64,000 bases of DNA from Brevinematales bacterium (GTDB lineage: Bacteria; Spirochaetota; Brevinematia; Brevinematales; Thermospiraceae), in assembly GCA_013177995.1 (NCBI GenBank), contig JABLXN010000014.1, positions 1-64,000 of the forward strand, given 5' to 3'. The stretch's first letter is position 1. Each line of letters begins with the position of its first letter. The notes under the pieces are model-generated. The model did no database searches. It was not told the DNA's origin and worked only from the letters and a program-made list of their open reading frames with translations. This document shows, piece after piece, positions 45,859 to 48,427 of the stretch. The position numbers and the translations under genes were made by a program.

Positions 45859-46741
45859 TATGACAGGATTTGCCAGTGCCTTTATCACGTATGACGACTT
45901 TGATATCGAAGTGGAAATCAAAAGCGTCAATTCTCGCTACTTTGAGTTTCGGCTTTTAGGAACCCCTCTTCCTGTGGAGTGGGAAAACGAATTCCGTCAA
46001 CAGGTATTTGAAGTCCTCAAACGGGGCAAAATTGATCTCTTGATCCGCGTGGTAGAAAAAAGTGCCAAAAACACCCGCGTTGTGGTCAATACCGAACTTG
46101 CCAAACAATACTTAGATGCCCTCAGAACCTTATCGCACGATTTAGGGATCCCCGGCGATATCACTATCCCTCATCTTCTCTCTTTAGGTCCTATTGTCGA
46201 GGTGGAAAAATTGGACGCGGATGTCACCCTTTTTGAGAGACTCAGGGAAGTGGTGAGTGATGTCCTGCAACGTACGGAAAATATGATGCGCCTTGAGGGA
46301 CAAAAAACCATCGCAGATATTCGCAAGTCCCTTTCCCTCATCGAGAAAGCCCTCTCGCTAATCGAACAGCGTTATCCCGAAAGCTTAGCGCGCTATCAGC
46401 AGGAACTTCAGAAGAAACTTGTCGAATTCGCTTCCAGTCTCGGGGAAAGTACAAGAGAAATTGTCCAGAACCGCATCCTCCTCGAAGTAGAACTCGTTTC
46501 AAGCCGGGTTGCCATCAACGAAGAGATTGTGAGACTGAGAAGCCATCTTCACCAGTTTGATCAGATCATTGAGGGCAAACTTCCCGGTGATGGCAAAAAA
46601 CTCGACTTTATCTCCCAGGAGATGAATCGCGAAACCAATACCATTGCCTCCAAATCCCAGGACTATGAGATCATTCAAGCAACCATAGACATCAAGGGAG
46701 AAATAGAAAAAATCCGTGAACACCTGAGGAATCTCGAATGA
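45848..46741 (+). CDS. YicC-family endoribonuclease
   Basis: 297 residues. It starts with the family hallmark MLRSMTGFASA and has VEIKSVNSRYFE and, at the end, FISQEMNRETNTIASKS. YicC-type proteins are RNA endonucleases. ATG 45848 overlaps the rnc end by 11 bp, with GAGGAG as ribosome site. The usual partner gmk follows with 4-bp overlap. Confidence 0.94.
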   Translation: MLRSMTGFASAFITYDDFDIEVEIKSVNSRYFEFRLLGTPLPVEWENEFRQQVFEVLKRGKIDLLIRVVEKSAKNTRVVVNTELAKQYLDALRTLSHDLGIPGDITIPHLLSLGPIVEVEKLDADVTLFERLREVVSDVLQRTENMMRLEGQKTIADIRKSLSLIEKALSLIEQRYPESLARYQQELQKKLVEFASSLGESTREIVQNRILLEVELVSSRVAINEEIVRLRSHLHQFDQIIEGKLPGDGKKLDFISQEMNRETNTIASKSQDYEIIQATIDIKGEIEKIREHLRNLE

Positions 46742-47301
46742 AACAGGGTGGTATTATTGTTATCTCCGGTCCTTCTGGGGTGGGCAAAACCACACTCTAC
46801 AAAAGACTTCTTGCCGAATTTCCTGAAAAACTTGCCTTCTCGGTTTCGGTGACAACCCGTTCTCCACGACCTGGAGAAGTCGATGGCGTTGATTATTATT
46901 TTTATACAAAAGAAGAATTTGAGAGAGCTAAAGAAGAGGGTAAGTTTGCAGAATGGGCTGAGGTGTATGGCAATTACTATGGCACGCTCAAAAGTGAACT
47001 TGAGAGAATCATGAAAAGCGGAAAAACAGCTCTTCTCGACGTCGATGTCCAGGGTGGGATGAGTATTCGACAGGCCTTCCCCGAGTCCTATCTCATCTTT
47101 ATTCTTCCCCCTTCTGTTGAGGAACTCAAAGAGAGAATCCTCAAACGTTGTAGCGATAATCCTGAGGCTATCAAACGCCGTCTTCACCAGGCCTCTGAAG
47201 AAATGAAAATGGCTTCCTTCTACGATCTCTGTATTGAAAACAAAAATCTTGATGAAGCCTATGCTTCCCTTCGTGACGCCGTAGTCTCACGAATTCTTTG
47301 A
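46738..47301 (+). CDS. gmk: Guanylate kinase
   Basis: 187 residues. P-loop ISGPSGVGKTTLYKRLL, the GMP-binding VTTRSPRPGEVDGVDYYF and LLDVDVQGG. It phosphorylates GMP to GDP. Last gene of the rpmF-gmk operon; rpoZ, often the next gene, is absent. Confidence 0.96.
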   Translation: MKQGGIIVISGPSGVGKTTLYKRLLAEFPEKLAFSVSVTTRSPRPGEVDGVDYYFYTKEEFERAKEEGKFAEWAEVYGNYYGTLKSELERIMKSGKTALLDVDVQGGMSIRQAFPESYLIFILPPSVEELKERILKRCSDNPEAIKRRLHQASEEMKMASFYDLCIENKNLDEAYASLRDAVVSRIL

Positions 47302-47309
47302 AAAAGAGA

Positions 47310-47342
47310 TGTATACTTTTGTATACAAAGTTGCATTTGCAA
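47310..47342. promoter_or_regulatory. Two palindromes upstream of the sigma-54 promoter
   Basis: TGTATAC-TTTT-GTATACA (47310-47327) and TTGCA-TT-TGCAA (47331-47342). They lie roughly 80 to 115 bp before the expected lpxC transcription start, the range of enhancer sites for sigma-54 activators. No T tract or GC-rich stem suggests a terminator. Confidence 0.5.
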
Positions 47343-47397
47343 TTATCTTTATCTTTTTAATTTCAATTCAGAAAAGCAATTAGAAAAATTTTTATTT

Positions 47398-47413
47398 TGG
47401 CACGATTCTTGCA
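47398..47413 (+). promoter_or_regulatory. Sigma-54 (RpoN) promoter of lpxC
   Basis: TGGCACG-ATTC-TTGCA is the -24/-12 consensus, with GG (47399-47400) and GC (47411-47412) exactly 10 bp apart. The start would be near 47424, leaving a leader of about 16 nt that includes AAGGAG at 47425-47430. Confidence 0.8.
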
Positions 47414-47439
47414 ATTAAAAAAGAGAAGGAGTGTACGTT

Positions 47440-48372
47440 ATGTCAAGAAAACAACAGACCCTCAAGTCTTCTGTTCGTTTTGAAGGCATAGGTCTTCATA
47501 CAGGCGAAAAAAGCACCATAGAAGTCCATCCCGCTTCTGAAGATACAGGACTGGTCTTTCTCACCCGTTATCAGGGAAAAGAAAGAGCCATCCCTTATAC
47601 CGTCGATTATATCACTGATACAAGAAATAATATTACCGTCTCGGATGGGGTGGTTTCCTACAAGACGGTAGAACATATGATGGGGGCCCTGTATGGCCTT
47701 GGAATCGACAATGCCATTCTTGAGTTTACCGGCCCTGAAATGCCCATCATGGATGGAAGTGCCGCTCCCTTTGTCGAGGCTTTTCTGAAAGCAGGAGTGG
47801 TTGCCCAGCATAGCGAGAAAAAGGTCCTTCGTCTCATGGAATCCCTGTGGGTGACAAAAGATGACAAGTTCTTAGTGGGCGTTCCTTTCTATGCTCTCAA
47901 GATCAACTATACTATTTCTTTTCCAAACTCACCCATTGGGACACAGACCTTCCAGCTCAATATGACAGAAGAGGATGCCTTTAGTTCCATAGCCCAGGCA
48001 AGAACCTTTGGTTTTCTGGAGGATATTGACTACTACCAAAAGAATGGTCTTGTGTTAGGCGGCGGGTTCGACAATGTTCATGTGTATAGCCGCAAAGAAA
48101 ACCGCTCCATCAATGGTGCCCGCTACGACGATGAACCTGTTCGTCACAAGGTGCTAGACCTTTTAGGTGCCCTTGCCCTTCTCCCCTATGATATTGAGGG
48201 ATTCCTCGTATCCTACAAGGGTGGCCATACGTTAGATGTGGATTTTGCAAGACTTCTCTCTCACTATGCCGAGAAACAAAAAGAAGAAGCAAAGATCTTC
48301 ACCGAAGGGTATTCCTATCAGGTATCCGGTCTTCTTCACTTAGAGCCAAGAGTGGCTCATTTAGCTTCGTAA
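47440..48372 (+). CDS. lpxC: UDP-3-O-acyl-N-acetylglucosamine deacetylase
   Basis: 310 residues. The family start RKQQTLKSSVRFEGIGLHTG, the zinc-site His of TVEHMMGALYGLGIDN, and the second His and Asp in DDEPVRHKVLDLLGAL are all present. It performs the committed step of lipid A synthesis, showing an LPS-type outer membrane. ATG 47440 follows AAGGAG; the in-frame GTG 47431 overlaps that site. It has an unusual sigma-54 promoter and its own terminator (48398-48427). Confidence 0.95.
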   Translation: MSRKQQTLKSSVRFEGIGLHTGEKSTIEVHPASEDTGLVFLTRYQGKERAIPYTVDYITDTRNNITVSDGVVSYKTVEHMMGALYGLGIDNAILEFTGPEMPIMDGSAAPFVEAFLKAGVVAQHSEKKVLRLMESLWVTKDDKFLVGVPFYALKINYTISFPNSPIGTQTFQLNMTEEDAFSSIAQARTFGFLEDIDYYQKNGLVLGGGFDNVHVYSRKENRSINGARYDDEPVRHKVLDLLGALALLPYDIEGFLVSYKGGHTLDVDFARLLSHYAEKQKEEAKIFTEGYSYQVSGLLHLEPRVAHLAS

Positions 48373-48397
48373 AATAACTACCTTCCCATATTCCTGG

Positions 48398-48427
48398 GGC
48401 GTATCCATCATGGGTACGCCTTTTTTA
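48398..48427 (+). terminator. Rho-independent terminator of lpxC
   Basis: Stem GGCGTATCC/GGGTACGCC (one G-U pair), loop ATCAT, followed by TTTTTTATT. Confidence 0.85.

Follow-up and report, generated by a model that had tools for sequence, protein, structure and literature searches.

LpxC catalyses the first committed step of lipid A (LPS) synthesis, and in model bacteria its control is exerted mainly by proteolysis. A sequence-only reading of a 64-kb stretch of Brevinematales DNA (the window, by which we mean the whole stretch analysed) placed lpxC behind an RpoN (sigma-54) promoter with two palindromes further upstream, raising the question of whether lipid A synthesis in this bacterium answers to a signal at the promoter, and through which activator. 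We compared the locus with the remainder of its 2.38-Mb genome, with a near relative (Brevinematales MAG SKW221, whose lpxC is 90% identical) and with other genomes of the phylum Spirochaetota. The observation was confirmed as real, and its extent proved larger than first claimed: construction of the outer membrane seems to be coupled to two-component signalling, and we put at roughly 70% the probability that lpxC is activated via its sigma-54 promoter by an enhancer-bound response regulator, most likely an NtrX-like one.

The lpxC locus and its sigma-54 promoter

The lpxC gene (47440–48372, forward strand) encodes a UDP-3-O-acyl-N-acetylglucosamine deacetylase of 310 aa, which is a true LpxC by the curated model, scoring 247 bits for TIGR00325 (cut-off 187) in profile searches and matching PF03331 at E=1.9e-83. 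The -24/-12 element TTGGCACGATTCTTGCA (47397–47413, forward strand), ending 26 bp 5' of the gene, is a perfect consensus match that is conserved in relatives; its GG (47399–47400) and GC (47411–47412) stand in the canonical GG-N10-GC spacing, so that the RpoN match originally read from TGGCACG-ATTC-TTGCA holds in full. From the position of this GC, sigma-54 promoter geometry gives a predicted transcription start at 47424 on the forward strand and a predicted leader of 16 nt, which opens, at its extreme 5' end, with the ribosome-binding site AGAAGGAG seen in the sequence (47424–47431, forward strand). A pattern scan places a terminator-like hairpin 3' of lpxC (48396–48422, forward strand), and since the next gene in the open reading frame map is convergent, lpxC is probably transcribed alone.

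Both upstream palindromes of the sequence-only reading are present, and only the first is conserved in relatives. This candidate enhancer site, TGTATACTTTTGTATACA (47310–47327), begins 9 bp after the end of gmk (46738–47301) and is a perfect 18-bp palindrome lying 97–114 bp upstream of the predicted start, with its centre at ~105 bp, within the ~80–150 bp expected of an upstream palindromic activator site; its counterpart is conserved in the related loci L043 and L044. The other palindrome, TTGCATTTGCAA (47331–47342), 82–93 bp upstream of the predicted start, was rejected as an activator site on account of its lack of conservation, and is probably not functional. Bare palindromes of the 7+4+7 type are not rare, numbering 15 in the window; by contrast, TGTATAC-W4-GTATACA with up to two mismatches has only four genomic copies. 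One belongs to lpxC and the other three precede a gene for an RpoS-like sigma factor (sigA); all four lie upstream of sigma-54 promoters, that of sigA again being a perfect match. The search for this palindrome at other sigma-54 promoters, suggested at the outset, was thus successful. At both lpxC and sigA, such sites and the sigma-54 promoter are kept in the two other genomes of the genus, and in L043 site and promoter are retained at lpxC though the sequence upstream of them differs.

Sigma-54 machinery and further targets in the genome

The regulatory proteins that such a promoter calls for, named in the sequence-only reading as the things to look for, are encoded in the genome. It has rpoN (L001; PF04552, E=1.1e-56) and four full sigma-54 activators, or bEBPs (PF00158, E<1e-70 each): a NifA-like protein with two GAF domains (L003), an AtoC-like protein (L004), an NtrX-like protein with a HAMP histidine kinase encoded just upstream (L005; G000:C15:7267–7764) and a PspF-like protein lacking a sensor domain (L006). 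A weak second rpoN match (G000:C8:106676; 23 bits, two in-frame stops) was dismissed as spurious.

The exact motif TGGCAC-N5-TTGCW has nine matches in the genome, at least six of which directly precede a gene in the correct orientation, the six genes being lpxC, sigA, sigB and those for an Hsp20 protein, a type III glutamine synthetase and an alpha-amylase (the last three at L016, L017 and L018, respectively). The glutamine synthetase gene is divergent to that of the NifA-like activator. The products of sigA (L012; G000:C8:103811) and sigB (L015; G000:C12:4356) are RpoS-like sigma-70 factors whose perfect sigma-54 promoters are conserved through the order; RpoS is their best model, yet at 170 bits (sigA) and 255 bits (sigB) they score below the 379 bits of the NCBIfam RpoS equivalog. 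Together, the two genes could form a two-branch cascade from sigma-54 to sigma-70. Upstream of sigB there is a conserved 17-bp palindrome, TGTRTCA-N3-TGAYACA (L068–L074), one base shorter in its spacing than the site at lpxC and sigA; we rejected shared regulation of sigB and lpxC on this ground, and because of the 17-bp spacing sigB probably has another activator.

Conservation across the phylum

Within the phylum, lpxC was found in 110 of 393 genomes, and 78 of its upstream regions (~300 bp each) were scored for a sigma-54 site. The threshold of 9.5 out of 12 was reached by 41 of the 78, and these account for 41 of the 42 genomes in nine families (f1 3/3, f3 3/3, f4 2/2, f8 4/4, f9 8/8, f21 3/3, f27 2/2, f28 1/1 and f32 15/16); families beyond those nine had low scores. 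Reverse-complemented, reversed and complemented controls each gave 1/78. Within the order, every sampled family with lpxC (f1, f3 and f4) retains the sigma-54 site, and promoter and 18-bp upstream site are conserved together between families in which different genes lie upstream. In an f10 genome (G017, L187), a decayed near-site, TTGGTATAAAAATTGAT, lies ~116 bp before lpxC with one -12 base off consensus.

The outer bases of the upstream palindrome, TGT-N12-ACA, recur in 27 of the 41 promoter-bearing regions, compared to 1.5 expected from 100 dinucleotide shuffles (maximum 4), and in 1 of the 37 regions without the promoter. This enrichment is specific to the spacing: the next best, N9 and N10, reach 9/41, and all others at most 4 of 41. 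All eight f9 genomes have two such sites 19–20 bp apart, the f1 site is unlike that of other families in its inner half-sites, and in most of the GC-rich f32 genomes no TGT-N12-ACA was found within 170 bp, a point against the model proposed below. A composite search of 28 genomes (enhancer site, 60–90 bp, sigma-54 site) returned lpxC upstream regions in 18 of them and sigma-factor genes in four, namely sigA in the three genomes of the genus and an RpoS-like gene in an f8 genome (G015), along with a few further matches, such as an apparent amtB and a gene for a putative lipoprotein; a backward-pattern control gave one match. The enhancer/sigma-54 module therefore serves few genes, of which lpxC is the chief one.

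An NtrX-like protein as candidate activator

Among the lpxC genomes tested, rpoN was present in 72 of 79, most of those without it being incomplete assemblies. Activators were sampled in 28 genomes outside the order, part of them being classified, and in a tree of 121 sequences the NtrX-like class is represented in all nine promoter families, which is true of no other bEBP class. It is not sufficient, since f10, f13 and f37 have an NtrX-like protein and no good sigma-54 site at lpxC. In the sampled genomes, the promoter is absent where the only activator is NifA-like (G028 of f20, G112 of f39) or on the AtoC side (f14, f25), the single-class genomes without it being G028, G112, G115, G044, G143 and G045; a NifA-like protein is accordingly disfavoured as a general activator. 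In f2 genomes, which have no lpxC, rpoN is kept and the sole bEBP is an AtoC-like protein without its C-terminal DNA-binding domain (L094, L098, L099, L101).

Gene order links the same proteins. The cluster lptB-rpoN-hprK-ntrY-ntrX is found in f9 and most f32 genomes, and in f8, f13, f21 and f27 the order is the same with extra genes between. Seen at L251, L252, L253 and similar loci, this conserved lptA/lptB-rpoN-hprK-ntrY-ntrX arrangement joins LPS export, sigma-54 and a kinase-regulator pair. A HAMP-HisKA-HATPase kinase adjoins the regulator, as in NtrYX pairs (L005:2411–3496, L251:4619–6424), and for the regulators, compared with the REC-AAA+-Fis HTH type, the best model is that of NtrX (NF051870), at 455–457 bits; we call them NtrX-like because this is below the curated 600-bit equivalog cut-off. 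The NtrX recognition helix, ERTxL[HY]RK, shows conservation together with the outer TGT/ACA bases of the site. In the flanking sequence retrieved for 38 loci, no bEBP gene was found beside lpxC. The kinase of f9 (G016) belongs to the LIC_11548 family (NF047496, 823 bits against a cut-off of 750), which marks f9 as Leptospira-type and makes the gene after it the counterpart of LIC_11549 (EbpB); the same arrangement, a kinase of this family followed by a REC-bearing bEBP near rpoN, is what we find in G016, and the assignment is made for f9 and not for the window genome. By co-occurrence and linkage, an NtrX-like protein is most likely the activator of lpxC, and the comparison strongly supports the proposal that RpoN control here operates through an enhancer-binding protein.

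Receiver domains fused to LpxC

In four families (f14, f43, f16 and f25), no sigma-54 site precedes lpxC, and an N-terminal receiver domain and LpxC are encoded in one frame, an architecture recorded at loci L211–L220, L209, L210, L202 and L203. In the translations, these receivers show the acidic pair, phosphoacceptor Asp, Ser and Lys that are canonical for the domain. A receiver tree puts them on the NtrX side with 98/93 support, apart from AtoC-like receivers, with finer placement unreliable in a tree of 121 columns. The fusion would be a second, independent link between NtrX-type signalling and LpxC, one in which the enzyme itself, rather than the promoter, may be the direct target of a two-component signal. 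We found no literature report of such a fusion in a search that was thin on subscription papers. A broader scheme, for which we see about even odds, would make NtrYX a dedicated lipid A control of the Spirochaetota: in most LPS-bearing families NtrX would act on lpxC via sigma-54, and in others an NtrX-type receiver fused to LpxC would let the same phospho-signal work on the protein.

Proposed mechanism and alternatives

In the mechanism that we propose, the lpxC promoter would remain inactive until acted on by a phosphorylated response regulator of the enhancer-binding type. Bound at the 18-bp TGT-N12-ACA site, this regulator would loop to the promoter and melt the DNA via its AAA+ ATPase. 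Judged from sequence comparison, the binder would be the NtrX-like protein (L005 in the window genome), phosphorylated by its membrane-bound, NtrY-like HAMP kinase, and its binding would activate transcription. The signal would plausibly be envelope or lipid status, and with the same site driving sigA in this genus, one signal could bring about both more lipid A synthesis and a second sigma regulon.

That the promoter is a chance resemblance and lpxC an ordinary housekeeping gene deserves next to no credence: promoter-like words do arise by chance, and over half of one-mismatch matches are expected to (53 in the genome vs 34 in the control), but conservation in nine families, the spacing-specific enhancer enrichment and near-zero orientation controls reject this explanation. 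It is improbable, too, that promoter and site are real and another bEBP, whether AtoC-like L004, PspF-like L006 or NifA-like L003, activates lpxC in the order, the NtrX-like protein having other targets. Such an arrangement would accord with the presence of all four bEBP classes in f1, f3 and f4, with the divergent inner half-sites of f1 and with f2, where lpxC is missing and the remaining AtoC-like bEBP has lost its DNA-binding domain; it is at odds with the restriction of full promoter-family coverage to the NtrX-like class, with the Leptospira-type genome G016, whose two bEBPs are NifA-like and NtrX-like and which has neither an AtoC- nor a PspF-like one, with the missing promoter in sampled NifA-like-only genomes and with the grouping of LpxC-fused receivers with NtrX, not AtoC.

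We regard as conceivable, if rather doubtful, that lpxC has an extra housekeeping promoter and that the sigma-54 promoter only adjusts expression. The gene is essential in most LPS bacteria, and the short distance from the end of gmk to the enhancer site makes read-through possible; against this, a pattern scan found no sigma-70-type promoter near lpxC (~47300–47440), and in L043 site and promoter remain though the upstream sequence is different. Overlapping promoters are known for glmY and rpoE (PMC6358824), which would favour the dual arrangement.

Comparison with known systems

In the papers searched, we found neither the enhancer site and its conservation across the phylum, together with that of the promoter, nor the sigma-factor co-target, the NtrX assignment or the receiver-LpxC fusion. 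An association of sigma-54 with LPS outer membranes has long been noted (PMC3162934), and a sigma-54 switch at lpxC, conserved across much of the phylum, would provide a concrete mechanism for it.

In Leptospira, a sigma-54-type promoter at lpxC has been predicted in silico as one of a list (PMC12655853, citing Hu 2017). The RpoN/EbpA/EbpB system of that genus resembles the one described here in that LIC_11549 is number four after rpoN (LIC_11545), as in our cluster (PMC12655853, PMC4758666); it differs in that the texts searched describe neither an enhancer site nor an activator, nor any conservation outside Leptospira. For EbpB (LIC_11549), which carries a REC domain, the downstream targets were said in 2016 to remain unknown (PMC4758666). 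Our analysis suggests a target for this orphan regulator: in the broader scheme, lpxC would be the missing one. Saprophytic Leptospira have been reported without EbpB (PMC4758666), which could weaken or sharpen the NtrX model, if lpxC there keeps its promoter.

In Desulfovibrio vulgaris, lpxC is the single mapped target of DVU2934, likewise a response regulator aimed at lpxC, from a mostly NtrC-family, sigma-54-dependent set; however, that system belongs to another phylum, its operon includes an HD-GYP regulator, no rpoN/lptB linkage is reported and its motif was found only in close relatives (PMC3333781). The alphaproteobacterial NtrYX is from the same family of kinase/regulator pairs and regulates the envelope, but its NtrX shows no binding upstream of lpxC, and its effect on the gene is indirect and runs in the opposite direction, lpxC mRNA rising 8.8-fold in Rhodobacter without NtrYX (PMC7240162).

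Enterobacterial QseF/GlrR offers a further likeness, sigma-54 control of an LPS-precursor pathway and a stress sigma factor, given that E. coli QseF controls glmY and rpoE (PMC6358824). Its site, TGTC-N10-GACA, also fits TGT-N12-ACA (PMC8745638), but the full form does not occur here, the fourth-position C/G not being kept; targets and protein subfamily differ as well, and the candidate activators fit NtrX better than GlrR. Finally, the Rrp2-RpoN-RpoS pathway of Borrelia, as cited in PMC4758666, resembles the present case in that a spirochaete response-regulator bEBP drives an RpoS-type sigma gene, whereas here the enhancer site also stands at lpxC, with three copies before a distantly RpoS-like sigma gene.
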